DNA of 60,217 bases, from NCBI GenBank assembly GCA_027310725.1, contig DAIDAG010000077.1, positions 1 to 60,217 of the forward strand, read 5' to 3'. The position numbers and the translations under genes were made by a program. Numbering within the stretch: the stretch's first letter is position 1; every line of letters begins with the position of its first letter. Source of the DNA: Sideroxydans sp. (GTDB lineage: Bacteria; Pseudomonadota; Gammaproteobacteria; Burkholderiales; Gallionellaceae). The notes under the pieces were generated by a model. It was not told the origin of the DNA. It ran no database searches and was given only the letters and a program-made list of their open reading frames with translations. Of this stretch, positions 31,729 through 42,861 are shown piece by piece.

Positions 31729-34700
31729 ATGTTCGATACCGAAAGCGTTTCGCCTTCAACCTCTTCCCAGAACGATCCCGAGCAAAACACAAATTCCAGT
31801 CATAATCCGGAGCGACACAAGCACAAACCGGCTCAAGCCGAGGCCGAACATGCTTCCAAGAGCGGACAAGATTCGCACAATAAACTGGCCAAAGGCTCGA
31901 AAAATGATCCGGCTTTTGAAGAAAGCACAGCAATGACACAAGAGATCAGCACCGAAGTGCTGCTGGAAAAATACGCGGAAGCCGACGAGAAATCGGTACA
32001 GGACGTGCGTCGTCGTGTAGCCCGCGGTCTGGCGCAAGCCGAAAAAGCCGATCAACGAGCCAAATGGGAACAGGCTTTTTTTGAAGCACAGGAAAATGGT
32101 TTCGTTCCGGCCGGCCGCATCAACTCGGCCGCCGGCTTGAAGATACAAGCCACGCTGATCAATTGTTTCGTACAACCGGTGGGCGATGCCATTTCCGGTA
32201 CCAACGACGGCAAGCCCGGCATCTATGATGCCTTGCAGCAAGCAGCCGAGACCATGCGCCGCGGCGGCGGCGTCGGTTACGACTTCTCTTCCATCCGTCC
32301 CGAAGGCGCACACGTCAAAGGCACCAACTCGCGCGCCAGCGGCCCCATCTCTTACATGCGCGTATTCGACCGTTCCTGCGAGACCGTGGAGTCCGCCGGA
32401 GCGCGCCGCGGCGCCCAGATGGGCGTGTTGCGTTGCGACCACCCGGATATCGAGAAATTCATCAGCGCCAAGGACCAGGGCGACCTGCGCAATTTCAACA
32501 TCTCCGTGGGCGTGACCGATGCCTTGATGCAGGCAGTGGAAAAAGACCAGGATTTCGAGCTCGTGCACATGGCCGAGCCTTCTCTAGCGATCAAGGAAGC
32601 GGGGGCGACGCGACGCGACGACGGCAAGTGGGTATACCGCAAGGTACGCGCGGCCGATCTGTGGAAACAGATCATCGCCAGTACATACGACCATGCCGAG
32701 CCGGGTGTGCTGTTCATCGACCTGATGAACCGCGACAACAACCTGTCCTATTGCGAAATCATCGAGGCGACCAATCCCTGTGCCGAACAACCGCTTCCGC
32801 CTTATGGCTGCTGCTGCCTCGGCTCGATCGACCTGACGCGCATGGTGAAGAACCCGTTCTCGACGCATGCCGGCTTCGACTACGAGCCTTTCAAGCAGAT
32901 CGTGCGCGTCGCGGTGCGCATGCTGGACAACGTGCTGGACGTGACCGCCTGGCCGCTGCCTGAGCAGCAAAAGGAAGCGCAAAACAAACGTCGCGTCGGT
33001 TTGGGTTTCACCGGGCTGGGCGATGCGCTGGTGATGCTGGGCTTGCGTTACGATACCGACGAGGCTCGCAACTTTGCTGCCGACATTTCGCGCATCATGC
33101 GCGACGAGTCGTATCTCGCCTCGGTGGACCTGGCGATCGAGCGGGGCGCTTTCCCTCTGCTGGATGCCGACAAGTATCTTGCCGCGCCGCGCTTCGCATC
33201 GCGCCTGCCGGACGAGATCAAGAACAGGATACGCAAGCACGGCATCCGCAACAGCCACCTGCTTTCCATCGCCCCCACCGGCACCATCTCCCTGGCTTTT
33301 GCAGACAATGCTTCCAACGGCATCGAACCGGCCTTCTCTTGGTTCTACACGCGCAAGAAGCGCATGATGGACGGCTCGACCAAGGATTACTCGGTGGAGG
33401 ATCACGCGTGGCGCGTGTTCAAGCAACAGGGAGGCGACGTCTCGAAGCTGCCGCCCTCCTTCGTCACTGCGCTGGAGATCTCCGCGATCGACCACATGAA
33501 AATGGTCGCAGCCGTCGCCCCGTTCATCGACACCTCGATCAGCAAGACCGTCAACGTCCCCGCCGATTATCCGTACGAGGATTTCAAGGATCTCTACACC
33601 GAAGCGTGGAAAGCCGGACTGAAGGGGCTGGCGACCTATCGCCCCAACAGCGTGCTGGGCTCGGTACTTTCAGTCACGCCCGAGAAAAAAGAAGAACAGC
33701 CGCAGGATTTCGTGTTCGACCAGGACCGGCGCATCGTGCTGGAAGCAGCGCCTAACCCCGCTCTCGCCTCGTTACGCTGGCCGGGTCGGCCTTCGCTCAC
33801 AGCAGGCAGTTCCGGCTGGGTGTCGCAAGTGGTGAAGCATCCGCTCGGCAGTTTTGTGACATTCGTATCGCATACGACCAACGGCCGCAACCATCCGTTC
33901 GAGGTGTGGGTGAACGGTTCCGAGCAGCCGCGCGGCCTCGGTGCATTGGCCAAATCATTGTCGATGGACATGCGCACGCGCGATCCGGTGTGGGTACGCA
34001 TGAAACTCGAGATGCTGATGAAAACAACCGGCGACGACGCCTTCGACATGCCGATGCCGCCCGATGGCGAAGTGAAACGCATGCCGAGCCTGGTCGCCGC
34101 GTTCGCGCACTTGCTCAAGTATCGCATTGAAGAATTGGGCGCTCTGGAAGTTTCGGAAGGCGAAACGACACCGATGATGGACGCGCTTTTTGCCAAGAAA
34201 GAACCGAAGACCGGCACCGACGGCACCATGAGCTGGACAGTGGATATTTCAAATGCAGGCAGCGGCGACGACTTCGTGCTCGGCTTGAAAGAACTGGTGC
34301 TGCCGGACGGGCAGCGTCGTCCCTACTCGATGTGGCTGTCCGGCGTGTATCCGCGCGCACTCGACGGACTGTGCAAGGTGCTGAGCCTGGATATGCGAGT
34401 CATCGACCCGGCGTGGATCGGCATGAAGCTGCGCAAGCTGCTCAACTTCGGCGAACCGCTGGGCGATTTCATGGCGCGCGTGCCGGGCGGCAACAAGATG
34501 GAGAGCTACCCGTCGACCGTTTCCTACGTCGCCAAGCTCATCATCCACCGCTACGCGATGCTGGGCATCCTCGACGAACACGGCTACCCGGTGCAGCAGA
34601 TGGGCGTGCTGGAGATTCCGGAAGGACAGATCAAGCCTACCGGAATCAAATCGATCGTCGGCAAAATGTGCAAGGAATGCGGCAACGCCACATTGATCAA

Positions 34701-34755
34701 GAAGGACGGCTGCGAATTCTGTACCAGTTGCGGAGCGATAGGAGCGTGCGGTTAA
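31729..34755 (+). CDS. nrdJ: Adenosylcobalamin-dependent (class II) ribonucleotide reductase
   Basis: Reduces ribonucleotides to deoxyribonucleotides with coenzyme B12, with or without oxygen. The ATG at 31729 follows a strong AAAGGGAG site, giving 1,008 residues with a polar, low-complexity N-terminal extension of about 67 residues; an internal ATG at 31932 ([11 protein letters not shown]) is where shorter homologues start. The core shows [58 protein letters not shown], active-site [14 protein letters not shown] and [12 protein letters not shown]. Two TSCPD-type repeats (about 680-810 and 820-960) and a cysteine tail, CKECGNATL to [14 protein letters not shown], finish the protein, the tail being a zinc ribbon or thiol relay. 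A Tn7-like end begins 28 bases after the stop. Confidence 0.95.
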
Positions 34756-34783
34756 GCGTGCGCTATGCAGCTGGATGCCAGAC

Positions 34784-34852
34784 TGTGGGGTACACCATAA
34801 AGCGCTAGTTGGACATTATAAGACGCTAGCAACTACATCATAAGTTGCAGTT
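34784..34852 (+). repeat. Nrd-proximal end array of the Tn7-like element (three close sites)
   Basis: From the terminal TGT at 34784: site 1 CACCATAAAGCGCTAGTT (34793-34810), site 2 CATTATAAGACGCTAG (34814-34829, 12 of 16 matches to site 1) and site 3 CATCATAAGTTGCAGTT (34836-34852, weaker). Start-to-start spacings are 21 and 22 bases, as in overlapping TnsB sites of a Tn7 right end. All read in the same direction, inward from the terminus. Confidence 0.65.
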
Positions 34853-34929
34853 GGTTTCCACGCTTAAGCGTTTCTTACTATCAGCATTTGTAGAGCTTAC
34901 AGCAAGGCCTTCACGAACCAATCAAACTC

Positions 34930-34975
34930 ACCCCCTTCGAAGCAATTCGAAGGGGGTTTATTTCTTTGTTTTGTA
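34930..34975 (+). terminator. Rho-independent terminator downstream of nrdJ, inside the element
   Basis: A perfect 11-base stem, CCCCCTTCGAA (34931-34941) with TTCGAAGGGGG (34946-34956), has a GCAA loop followed by a T-rich tail. It would end transcripts arriving from nrdJ. It lies inside the proposed transposon end, so the original nrdJ terminator may have been displaced. Confidence 0.85.
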
Positions 34976-34993
34976 ATTTTTAGAAACCATAGC

Positions 34994-35296
34994 ATGCAGC
35001 ATTTCAAACTTCATCTGACAGGCGTTGACCGATGCTCGGCCTTAGGAGACATTGGCGGTTTGCTGAAATGGCTGTCTGCTAGCCCTGTTGATCTTCTTCT
35101 TCAGCGGGAACAGATAGAACAGTTTCTGCGTGACAAACGTGCTGAATCCGAAAATGATACGTTGTCATTAAGCGAGGCAGCCAAATATCTTTATTGTGAC
35201 CCAATGGTTTTGCCTACAATTATTGATGAAGGACTATTGGAATCTGTTGAGGTCGTAACCGGTACCGTGTCTGCAGCAGTCACGACAGTGCTGTAG
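34994..35296 (+). CDS. Small HTH protein, first gene in the element
   Basis: A 100-residue protein. The C-terminal half, TLSLSEAAKYLYCDPMVLPTI followed by IDEGLLESVEV, has the pattern of an excisionase/MerR-type helix-turn-helix (SEAAxxL then a recognition helix and a GLL turn). The N-terminal half (LGDIGGLLKWLSASPVDLLL) resembles no family I can name. Position next to the transposon end and the HTH recall the C-terminal part of TniQ/TnsD target selectors, but this is only a suggestion; an excisionase-like accessory factor is equally possible. No strong ribosome site is seen. A good terminator follows at 35330. Confidence 0.55.
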   Translation: MQHFKLHLTGVDRCSALGDIGGLLKWLSASPVDLLLQREQIEQFLRDKRAESENDTLSLSEAAKYLYCDPMVLPTIIDEGLLESVEVVTGTVSAAVTTVL

Positions 35297-35329
35297 AGCG
35301 TCACCCAGCTTTTTTATAGCCAGACAACG

Positions 35330-35357
35330 GCCTGCTCCTTGGGGAGCAGGCTTTTTC
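35330..35357 (+). terminator. Rho-independent terminator after the HTH gene
   Basis: Nine-base stem GCCTGCTCC (35330-35338) with GGAGCAGGC (35343-35351), a four-base TTGG loop and a TTTTTC tail, 34 bases past the HTH gene stop. This strong terminator isolates the HTH gene as its own transcript and supports its being real. Confidence 0.9.
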
Positions 35358-35518
35358 TTGAGCTCCACGCCATTGAAGATTTGCAAGGATGTTAAGGGAC
35401 CTGTTTGTTATCTGGCAAGAGAAAGATCGCTCTTATAACGTTAATACAGTTAATATTCATTGTATTCGACAACGCCACAGGGATATCTACGCGGATGCAA
35501 GCGTCTGCTCCCATATTG

Positions 35519-35974
35519 TTAACGGCGAATCTTACGTTTCCGTCTAACAACAACCGCCCCAAGCAAAAAAATAGAGTAGATAGAGATACGAATGAAGTCA
35601 TTTCGGCCAATGTTCTGAAATGCGGTTAGCGTTGCAGTTTGAGAATTCACCGCGACCCAGTCGGTCACTATTGTGTAGTACAAGTATCCGTGAAGGAACA
35701 ACAGTAAAGCAAGAACGATGTTGTAGATAGTCATAAATATGAAATCAGCTCGGCAGGTGATCCTCATCGCCACCGAGAAGGCAAGCGCGTATGCGAATGC
35801 AAGCAGCGAATAAAACAACAATTCCAAAGGCCACAAATCTCTGACATCCTGACTATCTGGGCTATGACGCAACTCAAACAAGATTTCCAGACAGTTAGAT
35901 AAAGAGAGTACTGCAAAAACAAAAATAACAACTGTCCAAAAGCGAACCATTTGAGAGCGCGAATTATCTCTCAT
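35519..35974 (-). CDS. Four-helix membrane protein, unknown function
   Basis: A hydrophobic protein of about 151 residues from the ATG at 35974 (MRDNSRSQMVRFWTVVIFVF), with four predicted membrane helices: around residues 11-28, 48-70 (LELLFYSLLAFAYALAFSVAM), 77-100 (FIFMTIYNIVLALLLFLHGYLYY) and near the C-terminus before RRKRKIRR. The frame is open to 36097 (192 residues), but that extension has no membrane or signal character and the ribosome site is no better. No family recognised. The AT-rich codon use fits the accessory element around it. It is separated from the radical SAM gene by 287 bases. Confidence 0.6.
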   Translation of the reverse strand: MRDNSRSQMVRFWTVVIFVFAVLSLSNCLEILFELRHSPDSQDVRDLWPLELLFYSLLAFAYALAFSVAMRITCRADFIFMTIYNIVLALLLFLHGYLYYTIVTDWVAVNSQTATLTAFQNIGRNDFIRISIYSIFLLGAVVVRRKRKIRR

Positions 35975-36260
35975 ACCGCGCTTTCTCTTTTCCGATAATG
36001 AAAAGTAGAGGCTAAATGTATCTGATAAGCGCGCAAGTTGGAGTTCATCTTGATTGCATGTGGCTAACCTCAACCCCTTGTTCAGGATCATGCACAATGA
36101 CTGCTTCTATACTGGCCATCATAAGTAGATGGTTGAATTTTGAATGCAGTTTTGAGTAACGCAAGTCAAGTGGGTGAAATGAAGTAGCATCCATGCCATT
36201 TTGGCCTATCATTCGCAATTGCGAAGACGGTAAGATAGACTATTTAGTCGGCCGGCTTTA

Positions 36261-37439
36261 TTACGGCATGATCTCGACATACTCGTAGACCTCCGCATCG
36301 ATCAGTTCCTTCCTCACCGGCAGCGCAGCCTCGGCGAACCATGCGCGGGGATCATGCCTGTCGATCTCACGCCCCATAAAACGGACTAATTCGCAAATCG
36401 GCTCGACTACGTTGATACGGTAGCGTTCGTCCTTCTTCACGTACCCCAAGTAGAGATTCTTCATGCAGTTACCGCGACACCAAGAATACGCTTCGCAGGC
36501 GGCGCATGGCATATCGGGATGCAATTGCAAAGGGCTTTTGTTAAGCCAGTTACCCTGTATCTCCCCCATCTGCATACTCGGCACGTATGTCATATCGGGA
36601 CAGGGAAATATCTTGCCGTCCGGCATGACGTTGATGATGTGTGTCGAGACGCGGCACTGTGTTTGTCCGGCGTAGAGCTCCTTGGCGCGATTCGGCAATA
36701 CCTTGTTGCGCACGATGCCCATGATTGGGATCAATGGGTATAGCTTGTCCGTGCGAAGGAAAAATTTGTCAATAAGTTGGATCAATACTGCTTTGCGCTT
36801 GTCCAGCGAATCGCCGAAATATTGTTCGTCAGCGACGAACTGCCAGTACAAGTAATCGAACGATTCCGCGAGGTCATCGAGTTCCCCAAAGCCAGTATCG
36901 GAACTCCCCCAAGTCACGCGTGCGGTGACACTGCCACCCAGCCGGTCACGCACATGGTTCACGTTTTTGTGCACTTGACGCCATACGCCCCGCCCCCGGT
37001 AACCGTCCGTGGTTTGTTCCCCACCATCAACAGAGACAAGAACATTGGACAACTTGTGTAGCATCCAGTTAGGCAAGTTATCCAGCAACGTACCGTTTGT
37101 CTGCAACTGGTAGCGGAAGGATGGGAAACGGCGCATCACCGTTTCCATCATCTCCCGGTTAAGCGTTGGTTCGCCACCATAGAACGTGACATAGATTTCC
37201 TTGCCGCCGAGGTTCCGCTCAATGAAGGCGGCAAGTTGATCGATGCCGTATTTCAGCTCGGTCTGTGAGCCCAGCACTTCACCCACGCTCATCGAACAGT
37301 AGCTACATTTCAGATTGCACTTGAGCGTGGTGAGAAGTTGTAGTTCGACGCGACCGCCAACGATGGCGTGGTCGGCATCGGTCATAGGTAATTGTGTTGT
37401 CACAGGAGACAAGGAAATGGTTCGGGTGGTCATGTACAT
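36261..37439 (-). CDS. Radical SAM/SPASM peptide-modifying-type enzyme
   Basis: About 390 residues. The radical SAM cluster motif is CNLKCSYC (C-x3-C-x2-C) near residue 41, followed by FYGGEPTLN, the LQTNGTLL strand and a VLVSVDGGEQTTDGYRGRGVW segment like that in the AF1577/Mhun_1560-type putative peptide maturases. The C-terminal SPASM-like region has cysteines in QCRVSTHIINVMPDGKIFPCPD, MPCAACEAYSWCRGNC and EPICEL, enough for auxiliary 4Fe-4S clusters. It probably modifies a peptide or protein side chain by radical chemistry; the substrate is unknown. Two starts are possible, 37439 and 37433; the latter overlaps a 26-codon ORF by ATGA. It is the best-preserved cargo gene of the element. 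Confidence 0.85.
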   Translation of the reverse strand: MYMTTRTISLSPVTTQLPMTDADHAIVGGRVELQLLTTLKCNLKCSYCSMSVGEVLGSQTELKYGIDQLAAFIERNLGGKEIYVTFYGGEPTLNREMMETVMRRFPSFRYQLQTNGTLLDNLPNWMLHKLSNVLVSVDGGEQTTDGYRGRGVWRQVHKNVNHVRDRLGGSVTARVTWGSSDTGFGELDDLAESFDYLYWQFVADEQYFGDSLDKRKAVLIQLIDKFFLRTDKLYPLIPIMGIVRNKVLPNRAKELYAGQTQCRVSTHIINVMPDGKIFPCPDMTYVPSMQMGEIQGNWLNKSPLQLHPDMPCAACEAYSWCRGNCMKNLYLGYVKKDERYRINVVEPICELVRFMGREIDRHDPRAWFAEAALPVRKELIDAEVYEYVEIMP

Positions 37440-37510
37440 TCTTTATCTTTGAGATGGATGGAACAGTCACCGTAATTCAGCTCAAAAATAGAATGAGTGT
37501 TGAATTGCAT
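37430..37510 (-). CDS. Candidate 26-residue leader or substrate peptide
   Basis: A short frame, beginning MQFNTHSIFELNYGDCSIH and ending LKDKECT, runs directly into the radical SAM gene. Its TGA overlaps the ATG at 37433 as ATGA, the usual sign of translational coupling. It contains two cysteines and several acidic and basic residues, as some modified-peptide precursors do, but it has no clear ribosome site of its own and is short enough to occur by chance. I list it because radical SAM/SPASM maturases are often encoded next to their substrate. Confidence 0.3.
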   Translation of the reverse strand: MQFNTHSIFELNYGDCSIHLKDKECT

Positions 37511-37564
37511 TACTGATTGGGCCACTTTACCCAAAGTAATCCATTTAACTTTGATCCTCGTCAA

Positions 37565-37801
37565 TTAAAACATATCCACTTGAATTTTTTCCTTCATTGG
37601 AAGGTGGAAGGCCATCCGAATCGCAAATTGGGAAGCTAAGCGTTTAGTCAGCATGTCCACCTGCTGGCGCACACGGGTCATGTTGCCCGCGTCAAGTGGA
37701 TTGTCCAGTACGTCGGCAATCGGATTGCCAACTTGGCGAGCTTCATCTTCGCGGAAGCCGCGCGTGGTCATGGCCGGCGAACCAAGGCGGATGCCCGACA
37801 A
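37565..37801 (-). pseudogene. 3'-end fragment of serine hydroxymethyltransferase gene
   Basis: The first 54 residues ([20 protein letters not shown], then [13 protein letters not shown] and [12 protein letters not shown]) match the last domain of GlyA, just past where TSGIRLG normally occurs. The terminal 20 or so residues ([18 protein letters not shown]) diverge from the family, so both ends are broken: about seven eighths of glyA is missing and the natural C-terminus is replaced. The GC-rich codon use resembles the host's own genes. It cannot make an enzyme and is probably a piece carried in by recombination. Confidence 0.75.
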
Positions 37802-37995
37802 GATTCCAATTCAAACCCATTTTGTTAACTGATATGTAGTCGTTCTGCCCTTCTTAAGTGCGATTCTGAGTCATAGGCAGTTACCAATCAGGGTTGTCAT
37901 CCGCCAGCAAATAAGGTTATTTACATCTTGTGGGTAAATACGCCTAATTGAGAAACTGCCTGTTACACGGGAATAAGCTATGCCAGGCTATGTGA

Positions 37996-38238
37996 TTGAA
38001 AATCATTCTTCTCGGTGCACCTGGACGATTCAAGAATGCCGATGAAGAAATGAGTTTTCTGAAAGCGTTCTCTGAAGCGAGCTACTACCTGTGGCGCAGC
38101 AAGTTTGGTGGCATGAGCGTACCTGATGCGAAACGCCTGAAAGAGCTTGAGAGCGAGAATGCGCGCCTGAAGAAGCTACTTGCTGAGTCGATGCTGGAGG
38201 ACGAAGCTGTGCGCGAGGTGCTCCGAAAAAAGTGGTAA
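37996..38238 (+). pseudogene. Broken IS3-family orfA fused to an adk-like start
   Basis: The frame opens with KIILLGAPG, identical to the start of adenylate kinase (nt 37999-38023) but without the rest of the P-loop, then joins RFKNADEEMSFLK and, after an apparent deletion of the helix-turn-helix, FSEASYYLWRSKFGGMSVPD and the leucine-zipper part (LKELESENARLKKLLAES) of an IS3 OrfA, ending LRKKW. The A6G slip run near 38225 for IS3 frameshifting is preserved, and orfB overlaps the end. Loss of the DNA-binding part means it is almost surely inactive. Confidence 0.75.
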
Positions 38239-38912
38239 AGGCACCGGCACGCCGCGAAGCGGTGCGCGCTCTGGCGAATCGCGGATTGAGTGAGCGCCAT
38301 GCCCTGCGCATCATCGGCATGAGTGCCAGTGCCTATCGTTACCAACCAGCTCCTGACCGCAATCATGCCCTGCGGGAGCAGATCGTTGCTTTGGCACATC
38401 GGCACCGCCGTTATGGCGCCGGCATGATCTACCTGAAATTGCGCCAAGCAGGACAGCAGGTCAATCACAAGCGGGTCGATCGGCTCTATGCCGAGGCTGG
38501 CCTTCAGGTACGGCGGCGCAAACGCAAGAAAGTGCCGGTATCGGATCGGCAACGCCCAGTGCAGTTCGAGTTAACGGAGCAGACACGTGATGCCGTGGCT
38601 ACCTGGATTGCGAAAGCGAGCCTCAGCGCAGAACAGTACCTTTTCCCAAGTCGGCAGAAGGAATCTCCTCACATTACTACTCGGCAATATGCCCGAATCG
38701 TGCATCGATGGGTTCAGGCAGTCGGTCTGGATACGTCAGATTATGGGACACATACGATGCGACGCACTAAGGCCACTTTGATATACCGCCAAACGAAGAA
38801 CTTGAGGGCAATTCAGCTGCTGCTCGGCCATAGCAAACTTGAGAGTACCGTCAGATATTTGGGCATTGAAGTTGATGATGCCCTAGAGATTGCTGAGCAA
38901 ACTGAAATCTAG
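38232..38912 (+). pseudogene. Chimera: IS3 OrfB N-terminus fused to tyrosine-recombinase C-terminus
   Basis: Residues 1 to about 110 (APARREAVRALANRGLSERH, then MSASAYRYQP, HRRYGAGMIYLKLRQAGQ and RRRKRKKVPVSDRQ) are the helix-turn-helix start of an IS3-group transposase, before its DDE core. From about residue 112 (RPVQFELTEQTRDAVATWI) the protein is instead the catalytic C-terminus of a tyrosine recombinase: SPHITTRQYARIVHRW, the H-x-x-R box HTMRRTKATLIYR, LLGHSKLESTVRYLG with the catalytic histidine and tyrosine, and a DDALEIAEQTEI tail. The join near 38545-38560 is in frame. The recombinase N-terminal core-binding domain and first catalytic arginine are missing, so neither activity is expected. 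Confidence 0.85.
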
Positions 38913-39104
38913 CCATTTTTAGATAGTGCGACTGACTTTACGGTCGGTCGCACTCGACGGCTTGGATAATATGAGCACTGACCGTCAGGTTGGAAAACAA
39001 AGCAGACTGTTTTATGGTAATTTTCCCACCAGATGAAGGGCCGCTATGCGACAACACGGCTGAGCGCGTACTTTCGGCCACAAGCAGCCGATCGAGGATG
39101 TGCC

Positions 39105-39776
39105 ATGCAATATATAAAGATAATCGTCATTAGTTTGCTTCTTTCGGGATGTGTGGGAGTTGGTATCACCTCCACCAACTTAAAGGATGAAACCACCCAG
39201 ACGGATGAATCTAGATTGCTAAAGTCTGCAGCCTATATCATTCACAGTACTCTCGATCAGAAATCATGGAGCGATGCATTATCCGGTTTTACGAATAGTG
39301 AAAATATTATTTTCGTAAATAAGGAAGATGCTACGGACAAATTATCTTCCTTTATCAACCGAACCAGGCCTCTTCCTATAATTCAAGTCTATTTTGAACC
39401 GGTAAATAAAGAGCCAAAGTTTGTAGATAAGGCGATTTTTGTAGAGTCCATGCTTTCACTATTTACATTGTCTGTCATACCAGGATTGATAGATGAGCCG
39501 TATACATATGAAGCATCTTTCAGCGTCTCGAAACCCGGGGTGGAAAATTCACCACAACCAAACTGGGAGTATTCGTCGAGAAGGCGAATGTTTATGTGGC
39601 TGCCGCTTCTTCCTATAGCAGATACTATTTGGCTATTTGGTGCGGATATCAAGCTTGATGAAAAATGGAAGATTGAGGAAAAGCGGCGTTTTATACTGAG
39701 TTTTCTAAAAGATGCCGAATCAATATTGAGAGAATTGGAACTAAACGCTTCGCCGTCGTTTGATGGCAAAAAATGA
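39105..39776 (+). CDS. Lipoprotein of unknown function
   Basis: A 223-residue lipoprotein starting at ATG 39105, behind GAGG at 39094-39097; the open extension to 39033 has no export signal. The signal is MQYIKIIVISLLLSGCVGVG with lipobox LLSGC. The mature part is mixed alpha/beta with a hydrophobic helix around LSLFTLSVIPGLIDEP and a second hydrophobic stretch near MFMWLPLLPIADTIWLFG, suggesting close membrane contact, and ends in a charged helix. No family recognised. It is AT-rich like the rest of the element and is the last gene before the distal end array. Confidence 0.7.
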   Translation: MQYIKIIVISLLLSGCVGVGITSTNLKDETTQTDESRLLKSAAYIIHSTLDQKSWSDALSGFTNSENIIFVNKEDATDKLSSFINRTRPLPIIQVYFEPVNKEPKFVDKAIFVESMLSLFTLSVIPGLIDEPYTYEASFSVSKPGVENSPQPNWEYSSRRRMFMWLPLLPIADTIWLFGADIKLDEKWKIEEKRRFILSFLKDAESILRELELNASPSFDGKK

Positions 39777-40053
39777 GGCCAGATCAAAAGTCGAGGAGTG
39801 ACTGAACTGATTCTCAGTTGTACGAACGAACAGATTATCTATCAGTTAATTTTCTAAGGAGCATCCGATTTGGGGCAACTGCTATGTCCGTTGTGGGTTA
39901 CGAAGTGACCTTCGAGCACCTTCAAAGCACAGGTTTTGAGCGACTGCTTCGGAGTGTATTTCGGACACCCCACTTCTGAATTAAGCGCAATAAGTTACTA
40001 GAATCCAAGAAATCACTATCATGAATTATTATTTATAATACATGCAGTTAGGA

Positions 40054-40192
40054 AGCTAGCACTTTATGCGTCTTTTCATGTGGAAAATAGCGCTATATGG
40101 GGTTTGCTAGTAGCGCAATTTGGTGTTCTCTAACCTGTTAACATATTAACTATGTTGCTCGTGAACTAGCGCTTTATGGTGCAACGCATACA
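40054..40192 (-). repeat. Distal end array of the Tn7-like element (four spaced sites)
   Basis: Read on the minus strand from the terminal TGT (complement of ACA 40190-40192): an exact copy of CACCATAAAGCGCTAGTT at 40164-40181, then degenerate copies at 40108-40125 (13 of 18), 40085-40102 (15 of 18) and 40054-40071 (13 of 18). Spacing is irregular and wide, like the separated TnsB sites of a Tn7 left end. The orientation is inverted relative to the array at 34784. Confidence 0.65.
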
Positions 40193-40250
40193 GTCGGCAC
40201 ACCGATGGTTGGTGGCTGATCAACAACTAAAGTCATTTCAGAATGTTTCA

Positions 40251-40286: not shown

Positions 40287-40477
40287 CCCTGATAGCAGCA
40301 TAGAGCTCGCGTTCGAAGCCCACCTGTAGATCGGGGCATCGTTACGAGATACCAGAACATGAACCCGGGAAATGAATTTTTATTAATACAGCATTGACAC
40401 GGCATTGATTATATTACCCATGTCGCATGCGAGCAGTCTGGAGACGATCAATTCTCTTTTTAATTGCGGGAGCCTAA

Positions 40478-40702
40478 ATGAACAAATTGATATTGATAAG
40501 CGCCTTGATACTGGCATTAGCGGGCTGCGAAGGCATGCCCATGGGTGATGATTACGGCGACCATGAATCCGGCTACAGGAATTTCGAAGGAATGGGATTC
40601 GGTGGCATGGGTTTTGGCGGTTTTGGTTTCGGCGGGATGGATGACGGAGGTTTCGGTGGCTTCGGCGATGGCGGTTTCGGCGGCATGGGCGATGACGATT
40701 GA
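40478..40702 (+). CDS. Small glycine/phenylalanine-rich lipoprotein
   Basis: A 74-residue secreted peptide: signal MNKLILISALILALAGC with lipobox LALAGC, then a short acidic part and a tail of GFGGMGFGG-type repeats with interspersed aspartates. Such Gly-Phe repeats are flexible and possibly metal- or surface-associated. Function unknown. It is 71 bases ahead of the Spy-like gene and may be co-transcribed with it. Confidence 0.65.
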   Translation: MNKLILISALILALAGCEGMPMGDDYGDHESGYRNFEGMGFGGMGFGGFGFGGMDDGGFGGFGDGGFGGMGDDD

Positions 40703-40773
40703 ATCGAAACCGGGATCATTGGTGACGGCTCGGGGTACAGGCCGCCACTTAATCAATACTTGAGGGGGTATTC

Positions 40774-41217
40774 ATGAAGAAAAATCAGCACATGATCTTG
40801 CTAGCGTCCGCTTTGTTTCTGGCAAACGTGACCGCACCTGTATATGCAGATGATCATGTTTCAAATAGCGAATCTGACTACAAAACGCGTCAACATTCCG
40901 ATCCCGTTGCAAATTCGGAGAAACATCTTTTGGCTTTCAAAAGAGAATTGAAGATCACAAATGATCAAGAGCAAGCCTGGAATACTTATGCCGAGAAAAC
41001 CAGGAGCAATGTCAAAGACATAAGGGATCGCACGAATGAAGCGATGCATGACCAGCCCCAGACTGCGCCTGAGCGTTTCGACCGCCATATCGCATTGATG
41101 AAGGAACGTCTGGCAAGCTTCGAAAAGATGGACGAGGCGCTCAAGCAGCTTTACGCGGCGCTGACCCCAGAACAGAAAGCCATAGCCGATCGGCATTTCT
41201 CAAGACTGCGTCATTGA
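40774..41217 (+). CDS. Periplasmic Spy/CpxP-like LTxxQ-motif protein
   Basis: A 147-residue periplasmic protein with a cleavable signal ending at VYADD. The mature part is all helical, with a typical Spy/CpxP repeat: LKITNDQEQAWNTY near residue 65 and LTPEQKAIADRHF near 133 are the two LTxxQ-like motifs. Such proteins act as ATP-independent periplasmic chaperones or stress sensors, often in metal or envelope stress. The start has GAGGGGG at 40762-40768 ahead of it. It converges with opgD. Confidence 0.8.
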   Translation: MKKNQHMILLASALFLANVTAPVYADDHVSNSESDYKTRQHSDPVANSEKHLLAFKRELKITNDQEQAWNTYAEKTRSNVKDIRDRTNEAMHDQPQTAPERFDRHIALMKERLASFEKMDEALKQLYAALTPEQKAIADRHFSRLRH

Positions 41218-41241
41218 ATCGAACCTGAGCCGTGCCGGAGT

Positions 41242-42861
41242 TCAGGCGGGCTGAAACTGGTATAGCCACGTTTCGGTGATCGTCTGTTCTCCGCTACGCA
41301 GGAAAAGACGTATTTCAACCGGCTCTTTTGTCGGCCCCAACTCGCCGAGGTCAAAAAATGTGCGCCAATGCCCCGGGATACCGTCGGGCACAGCCTCGGC
41401 CGCTATCCTGCTTATTTTTCCGCGTGAGGCCGACACGACCACTTCGGGAATGACACCTGAGGCAAGCTGATCGAGTGTTCCACCCTTGAATTCGACCACG
41501 AATTTAGGCACTCCCGGCGGACGCTTCGCCGGCTCGCCGCCCCGTCCGATGCGGGTCGCCACGCAACGCGCCAGGGAAGTCTTGAACGGCTCCTCGGCCG
41601 TCCAGTGCAAACGATAGCGCAAACGGTAACTGGAGCCTGCGGTCGCTTTTTCACGCGGCACCCACATCGCGGCAACGTTGTCGTAAAGTTCCTCGTCGGT
41701 AGGTTGTTCGACCAGTTGCACCGTGCCCTCGCCCCAGTTTTCGAGCGGCTCGACCCACAAGCCGGGGCGGCGCTCGTAATGAACGGCATCAAGGTATTCG
41801 CCGAAATCGCGCTCGCGCTGCATCAGGCCGAATCCGCGGGGGTTGTTGTCGGCAAAGGCCGATACCATGATCCCGTCGGGCTCGTTGAGGGGACGCCAGA
41901 TATGTTCGTTGGCGCCGGTCCACAGTGCAAGACCGTCCGAATCGTGAACTTCGGGCCTCCAGTCTGTCTGCTTTGTCTTGTCTTTCCCGGAAAACCAGTA
42001 CATCGACGTGGCGGGCGCGATGCCGAAGCGGGAAACGTCGCGCCGCATGAACAAGTTTGCTTCGACGTCCATCACCACGCCCTTTTCTCTGGTCAGGACG
42101 AAGCGATAGGCGCCGGTGACGCTTGGGCCGTCAAGAAAAGCATAGACGACAACCGTATTGGATCTGTCGCCGGCGGATTCAAAATAGAAGCGGGTGAAAG
42201 CCGGAAATTCTTCTGTCTTCCCAAATTCCACCGTATCGATGGCAATACCGCGTGCCGAAAGGCCGTATTGGTACTCGTCGCCGATGGCACGGAAATAGGA
42301 GGCTCCCAGAAACGCGGCCCAGTCGTTGTGCTGCCAATCAAGGCGCGACTGATCGCCGAGACGGCTTTCCTGGATGCGAAAGCCAGCGAAGTGCGCCTGC
42401 GGCCCGAGGCGATGCGCGGGGCTGTCGTCGGGCATCTCGAAATGGCTTTTGTCGAATAGGATCTCGCGCGCCAGGCTGTGGTCCTGTTTTGCGCTTGATG
42501 GCCTGTCCAGCCGGTACATCCTGACCGAGTTCTGAAAGAAGCATCCCGGATGAAAGAATTGGACGGGGTACTGCCCGGGGCCGCTGGCAAAGAGCGCATC
42601 ATCGGGCTTGAAGTGGATCTTACCGTGAGCCTCCCAATCGATCTGTTCCAGAATATCCTGATTCGGTTGCAGCTCCGGCTGGAAGGGTTGTGTCGACAGG
42701 CGCCTGGCCTCCTCGATCAGGCCGTCCCAGGAAAATACGGCAGCCTTGCCCAGTGCCAATCCCGATTCGGCAGCCATGACGCTGGTCCAGGGAAATGCGG
42801 CAGAGGCGGCTGCGGTGGCCAGCAGGCCAAGGAATTTTCTACGATCGAATTCTGACGACAT
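41242..42861 (-). CDS. opgD: Periplasmic glucan biosynthesis protein, OpgD type
   Basis: A 539-residue periplasmic protein of the OpgG/OpgD family, which shapes the backbone of osmoregulated periplasmic glucans made by OpgH. The N-terminus SSEFDRRKFLGLLATAAASAAF carries a twin-arginine signal, which points to OpgD rather than the Sec-exported OpgG. Family blocks include FSWDGLIEEARRLS, FHPGCFFQNSVRMY, ASYFRAIGDEYQYGLSARGIAIDT, and ANEHIWRPLNEPDGIMVSAFADNNPRGFGLMQRERDF. It lies downstream of opgH on the same strand with a hairpin between them. Confidence 0.93.
   Translation of the reverse strand: MSSEFDRRKFLGLLATAAASAAFPWTSVMAAESGLALGKAAVFSWDGLIEEARRLSTQPFQPELQPNQDILEQIDWEAHGKIHFKPDDALFASGPGQYPVQFFHPGCFFQNSVRMYRLDRPSSAKQDHSLAREILFDKSHFEMPDDSPAHRLGPQAHFAGFRIQESRLGDQSRLDWQHNDWAAFLGASYFRAIGDEYQYGLSARGIAIDTVEFGKTEEFPAFTRFYFESAGDRSNTVVVYAFLDGPSVTGAYRFVLTREKGVVMDVEANLFMRRDVSRFGIAPATSMYWFSGKDKTKQTDWRPEVHDSDGLALWTGANEHIWRPLNEPDGIMVSAFADNNPRGFGLMQRERDFGEYLDAVHYERRPGLWVEPLENWGEGTVQLVEQPTDEELYDNVAAMWVPREKATAGSSYRLRYRLHWTAEEPFKTSLARCVATRIGRGGEPAKRPPGVPKFVVEFKGGTLDQLASGVIPEVVVSASRGKISRIAAEAVPDGIPGHWRTFFDLGELGPTKEPVEIRLFLRSGEQTITETWLYQFQPA

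Follow-up and report, generated by a model that had tools for sequence, protein, structure and literature searches.

Between positions 34784 and 40190 of a 60,217-nucleotide stretch of the Sideroxydans sp. contig DAIDAG010000077.1 (the whole of which we call the window) lies a segment of ~5.4 kb that is probably a Tn7-type transposable element, oriented so that the tightly packed (R-type) end points toward the 3′ end of a ribonucleotide reductase gene. We take this gene to be the B12-dependent nrdJ. The segment is lower in GC (47.4% vs. 57.2%) and sits between nrdJ and chromosomal DNA, and its sequence is best read as a Tn7-type element that is non-autonomous and decayed and that reached this place by homing to nrdJ. 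What is new is the attachment site and the transposase-free state, not the kind of element.

Ends and boundaries of the inserted segment

The 18-mer CACCATAAAGCGCTAGTT occurs in exact inverted copies at 34793-34810 (+) and 40164-40181 (−), as a first-pass annotation of this DNA had reported. With up to three mismatches, there are four matches in the window (shuffle mean 0.01); with up to two, only the two exact sites are found in the whole 3.03-Mb source metagenome-assembled genome (MAG; G000), and with up to one, no further match occurs in 60 relatives, so the motif is not the scattered genomic repeat that the annotation had named as the case against a transposon. The asymmetry that it described also holds, with three sites spaced 21 and 22 bases apart on the nrdJ side versus four widely spread sites at the distal (L-type) end. 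The window carries TGT...ACA termini, one of them decayed, and asymmetric arrays of ~20-bp inverted sites. A weight matrix trained on 13 sites, all from other genomes, scored both exact sites at 28.9, above all 30 simulated windows that served as background (highest 20.2; mean of maxima 14.0). Of the others, two at the distal end (17.8 and 17.3) lie above the mean of maxima and below the simulated highest, while the remaining three (13.8, 10.2, and 9.4) are individually within noise and count through position and orientation only.

The nrdJ-side terminus remains where it was first placed, with TGT at 34784, 28 bp past the nrdJ stop codon. The distal terminus had been put at 40192, and ACA is indeed present at 40190-40192; however, the register from the terminus to the end of CATAA is 17 bases in every other end read, and the distal terminus is therefore more likely to be 40190 (TATGCGTTGCACCATAA), where TGT has decayed. 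In VchCAST, 2 extra bp between the terminus and the first site abolished transposition, according to PMC10201428, and this sensitivity to spacing fits the choice of 40190. Shifting the terminus by 2 bp makes a near target duplication visible, with flanks of CAGAC and CAGTC (4/5 alike; chance of at least 4/5 ~1.6%), and replaces the CAGAC/GTCGG pair from which the lack of a duplication had been concluded.

A congener, G004, has the counterpart locus without the element. There, a 79% match to window positions 40367-41671 starts 175 bp past the nrdJ stop; in the window, with the element removed, the same flank lies 28 bp + 176 bp from the stop. The breakpoints in G004 fall within the nrdJ intergenic stretch, so the empty-site comparison suggested in the annotation gives the locus, but the sequence is too diverged for placement to the exact base. 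Judged by this alignment, 34784-40190 is a real insertion with a counterpart locus that lacks the element.

The same end type behind nrdJ in other genomes

Ends of the same type (TGTGGGNNACACCATAA...) lie 4-31 bp past the nrdJ stop in ten genomes from two families, always with the R-type end facing nrdJ. They fall into two distance groups, one of 4, 5, 6, or 10 bp (four ends) and one of 27-31 bp (six ends), and TGT starts nine of the ten nrdJ-side ends read, among which that of G144 is damaged and that of G179 divergent. The site cores stand at identical offsets (12, 33, and 55) in the window, G118, G067, and G115. Since the same ends recur past nrdJ in relatives, mobile DNA of this type seems to use the gene as a place to land.

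Searches at several levels returned the same position. An exact 18-mer scan of the genome collection found three loci, two of them in Gallionella/Nitrosomonadales MAGs just past nrdJ and the third an archaeal chance match, and a 24-mer with up to three mismatches matched 3/158 genomes of the window's family, all exactly, all past nrdJ, and in three genera. The nrdJ 3′ region was located in 111/158 family genomes. Counting each distinct 3′ end once and requiring no fewer than 60 nt of downstream sequence left 109; in eight of these, the end signature, which had been widened for the divergent end of G179 after that sequence had been viewed, occurs within 100 nt. Without the widening, it has ten occurrences in the family nrdJ loci, nine of which are known ends (one locus fetched twice; both ends of G144) and one of which lies elsewhere. 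At the order level, a looser pattern matched six places in 399 genomes; both with at most one mismatch lie past nrdJ, one of them in the second family, and the four with two mismatches were not read in context. In the second family, 2/117 genomes match, both past nrdJ.

So constant a position could also mean that the repeats are not mobile DNA and instead form a regulatory region conserved at the nrdJ 3′ end, an explanation we hold to be highly improbable. The R-type end is always directly past nrdJ, and a strong terminator-like hairpin (≤ −11.7 kcal/mol) then follows in seven of the ten (weaker in G245, G144, and G179; no control set was scored). However, a regulatory region would be hard to square with a signature present in so few of the family's nrdJ 3′ ends, with 24 bases identical across three genera when the C-terminal 308 amino acids of NrdJ are only 67% identical (window vs. 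G067), or with the recurrence of the array in inverted form, 5.4 kb off in the window and on a separate contig in G118.

The distal ends of the window, G118, and G144 align with one another. That of G118, on contig C21, begins TGTCGGTTATACC... and has four spread sites alignable with those of the window; AGTTG (5 bp) flanks both G118 ends, and the terminal register is the same as in the other ends. At an equal distance from the first site, all three known distal ends hold an IHF-like sequence, with two mismatches in the window (shuffle P 0.44), one in G118 (0.07), and none in G144 (0.007). In G579, no opposite-strand end (up to two mismatches) was found within 59 kb of its end. A search of ten genomes for the end pattern with up to one mismatch gave 15 places (10 for the reversed control), comprising nine nrdJ-side ends, two distal ends (G144 and G118 C21), and four places without a reading of their context, while a second search gave 16 (21 for the reversed control), comprising ten known ends, one place that looks like chance (G182 C112), and five without a reading. 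Given these control counts, the case for the G118 distal end is made by three further sites, the alignment, and the flank, and not by the pattern match. Three scans of viral contigs gave no match.

Other features of the nrdJ locus were noted in passing. The short motif TAGGTTC.CAAAATA stands directly past nrdJ in G179 (L182, ~1300-1325) and G151 (L183, ~15468), twice in the latter, and may mark another element type at this site. In G076, a second copy of the last ~26 nrdJ codons lies ~1 kb past the full gene, as if element-borne (L134; G076:C1:70455-70532 and 71444-71740). NrdJ of G067 (L005:356-4312, −) and G138 (L184:2024-6076, −) contains a long insert, presumably an intein from its resemblance to one, and some other family members have nrdJ reading frames of at least 1300 codons.

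Gene content and the search for a transposase

No tnsA, tnsB, or tnsC gene is recognizable among the open reading frames (ORFs) of the window element by ORF list or Pfam search (Table 1). The first-pass description of a Tn7-family element without transposase genes is partly supported; of the two alternatives it offered, the truncated fragment of a large DNA-binding gene at the R-type end suggests loss, by deletion, over such genes never having been present. The element has no CRISPR-Cas genes that we could see, nor do the parts of the G118 element read. Its only tyrosine-recombinase gene is an integrase end fused to an IS3 piece, and the reading frame at 37561..37810 is presumably a remnant of glyA.

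Table 1. Coordinates of the element, its ends, and its surroundings in the window.
Feature	Position	Strand	Basis
nrdJ, target gene	31729..34755	+	Pfam ribonucleotide reductase domains
CAGAC, left copy of imperfect 5-bp target duplication	34779..34783	.	flank sequence
R-type end: TGTGGGGTACACC terminus and three sites starting at 34793, 34814, 34836	34784..34853	+	similar ends in L035, L036
Terminator-like hairpin (−21.6 kcal/mol), then T-rich run, just inside R-type end	34930..34957	+	computed
DNA-binding protein fragment (large protein; 100-aa ORF)	34994..35296	+	35108-35284 61% identical over 59 aa to G118 element protein, E 2e-17
Membrane protein (cargo)	35519..36097	−	ORF; weak, below-cut-off match to four-helix membrane protein family
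Radical SAM/SPASM protein (cargo)	36261..37439	−	PF04055 above cut-off
Open fragment resembling C-terminal part of serine hydroxymethyltransferase	37561..37810	−	translation
IS3-type orfA fragment and chimeric ORF (IS3 transposase start, tyrosine recombinase end)	37996..38912	+	ORFs, Pfam
Lipoprotein-like ORF (cargo)	39033..39776	+	ORF; no Pfam match
L-type (distal) end: terminus 40190 and four spread sites starting at 40164, 40108, 40085, 40054	40054..40190	−	aligned with G118, G144 distal ends
IHF-like sequence between first two distal sites	40139..40151	−	2 mismatches; not significant alone
CAGTC, right copy of imperfect 5-bp target duplication	40191..40195	.	flank sequence
Chromosomal flank	40367..41671	+	matches G004 DNA 175 bp past nrdJ stop

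The longer counterpart of the fragment at the R-type end, a protein of at least 548 amino acids with helix-turn-helix matches in the G118 element (L233:3118-4761, −), has the same orientation relative to the ends and is a candidate target selector, going by its sequence matches. Over 372 amino acids it aligns with TniQ from the tnsA-tnsB-like-tniQ operon of G014 (L056; E 2e-5 among 438 ORFs), while in the reverse search that TniQ does not recover it at E ≤ 1 among 3380 ORFs. Its N-terminal end, where a TniQ domain would fall, is cut by the contig end. Against the PDB nothing better than E 0.16 was obtained, plasmids yielded partial relatives only, and comparing profiles against small sets of TniQ and plasmid-operon proteins added no information. 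Defense-type genes, GmrSD-like and KAP-NTPase, are also present in the G118 element.

The matches of this protein also bring in a different class of element, in which the work would fall to an integrase together with two large proteins and one small one (as on plasmids of Vibrio, Shewanella, and Salmonella), the recombinases binding the end sites and the 5-bp repeats being a recombination core or a coincidence. The N-terminal part of the G118 protein does favor the third gene of such plasmid operons (E 4e-4 to 4e-3) over TniQ (0.019) in the 3380-ORF search, its C-terminal tandem repeats match a small protein encoded next to two annotated integrases on a plasmid of Bradyrhizobium, and the window element itself holds an integrase fragment. 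That fragment is fused to an IS3 piece, however, and in four plasmid operons of this kind, inspection by eye of the DNA upstream of the integrase revealed no similar ends. The parts of the G118 element that were read, which do not include its middle, show no integrase with partner genes. As the ends are inverted, start with TGT in nearly all nrdJ-side cases, and have a constant spacing between terminus and first site on both sides, all of which is Tn7-like, we regard a tyrosine-recombinase element as unlikely.

The annotation had proposed looking for tnsABC/tniQ genes whose own element ends match, and none turned up in the genomes searched. The source MAG has no match to TnsA (PF08722), TniQ (PF06527), or the Mu-type transposase (PF09299). 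Within the family, TnsA was found at 26 places in 23/158 genomes, none of them in G000, and neither an nrdJ 3′ end nor an end site with up to three mismatches occurs in these 26 regions (single four-mismatch matches in five). TniQ was found in 0/3 genomes with a model that does detect the L056 TniQ, and PF09299 matched in 3/12 genomes, where the regions read contained no ends of this type. Upstream of tnsA in the G014 tnsABC-tniQ operon (L056), no similar ends are present. The only TnsA-like match in G118 (C55) is weak and was set aside as a domain that presumably belongs to a restriction enzyme.

Several points have to be set against a Tn7-type element. No transposase or tns genes accompany these ends in any genome searched, at a weak sensitivity: G000 is 65% complete, PF06527 matched 0/14 control genomes, PF09299 scored the L056 TnsB-like protein at 0.007, and contigs break inside elements. 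The window duplication is imperfect, and the terminus at 40190 reads TAT, no longer TGT. The two ends in G118 are on non-overlapping contigs, so treating them as one element is inferred, and the G144 ends have unlike flanks (GGGCC vs. AAAAC); across the elements, the 5-bp duplication is thus 4/5 alike in the window, 5/5 in G118 (two contigs), and 1/5 in G144. The candidate selector could belong with either TniQ or the plasmid-operon proteins. With no transposase found alongside these ends, the class rests on the ends, duplications, and site use, and since no element with both these ends and tns genes was found in the genomes searched, membership in the Tn7 family and movement in trans are tentative.

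The unlike flanks of G144 also bear on whether the two ends in the window belong together, since they could derive from two neighboring elements with the intervening DNA deleted. Successive ends past nrdJ do exist in G118 and G138, where an older partial end lies between nrdJ and a younger end, and a second insertion in G118 sits within the older end. Still, the identical first site at both window ends and the resemblance of their flanks make such a composite quite unlikely.

If the segment is a Tn7-type element, as we favor, a TnsB-like transposase would bind the repeated sites and cut at TGT/ACA, while a target selector would read the coding 3′ end of nrdJ, which is conserved in the alignment of the loci, and set the insertion distance, as TnsD does at glmS; nrdJ would stay intact, and a terminator would usually come with the element. 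In the window copy, the transposition genes appear to have been lost; with these gone and the distal TGT mutated, this copy looks dead or dependent. Its movement by an enzyme supplied from elsewhere is possible, although probably it is not moved at all. More tentatively, and with more doubt than confidence, we suggest that a Tn7-type lineage spanning the window's family and the second family homes to the 3′ end of nrdJ and spreads mostly through copies that carry cargo (e.g., defense genes) but no transposase, with their own selector and a borrowed transposase. If so, a selector reading the nrdJ coding end would be another safe-site specificity for Tn7-type systems, and copies without tnsABC at one fixed site would offer a way to ask if Tn7-type elements have dependent satellites like those of simpler transposons. 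Used together, the ends and the nrdJ site allow a precise search for the autonomous partner that is missing.

Comparison with known systems

In the literature searched, nrdJ was not found named as a Tn7 attachment site, which may be named elsewhere. No paper was returned for Tn7-like transposons together with nrdJ; of the further papers listed, one set had none with "ribonucleotide reductase" and another none with "ribonucleoside". Tn7 together with Gallionella gave one unrelated paper, and the main texts of PMC10293859 and PMC8649781 contain no word beginning with nrd.

Tn6022 and Tsy elements, as described in PMC10293859, insert in comM, with no canonical ends reported for Tsy, and have TnsF selectors; no TnsF was identified here. 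The likeness is a dedicated DNA-binding target selector with ties to tyrosine recombinases (PMC10293859). The tyrosine-recombinase operons with two large partners share with the G118 element the weak similarity of its protein to their third gene, whereas their end sequences are unlike and no such operon is seen in the window element or the G118 parts read. We assume these to be the operons named gamma-mobile-trio.

VchCAST (Tn6677), a type I-F CRISPR-associated system, differs in its CRISPR-Cas genes. A CCATAAA-like core in its sites is a point of likeness. It also resembles the elements described here in an 8-bp terminus before the first site and in the position of an IHF site, which falls between the terminal TnsB sites of the left end, both as given in PMC10201428.

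Tn7 itself differs in its target, glmS, the end of which TnsD binds (PMC2918618), and in its tnsABC genes, none of which were found in the window element. Its ends have three left and four right sites (PMC8649781), unlike the three R-type and four L-type sites here. In other respects they agree: Tn7 and Tn7-like elements with TnsD/TniQ homing share the TGT terminus, the ~20-bp site arrays that are tight at one end and spread at the other, and, in part, the 5-bp duplication (5/5 in G118, 4/5 in the window), and Tn7-like elements likewise insert at a constant position past a conserved gene, toward which the same end is always turned.

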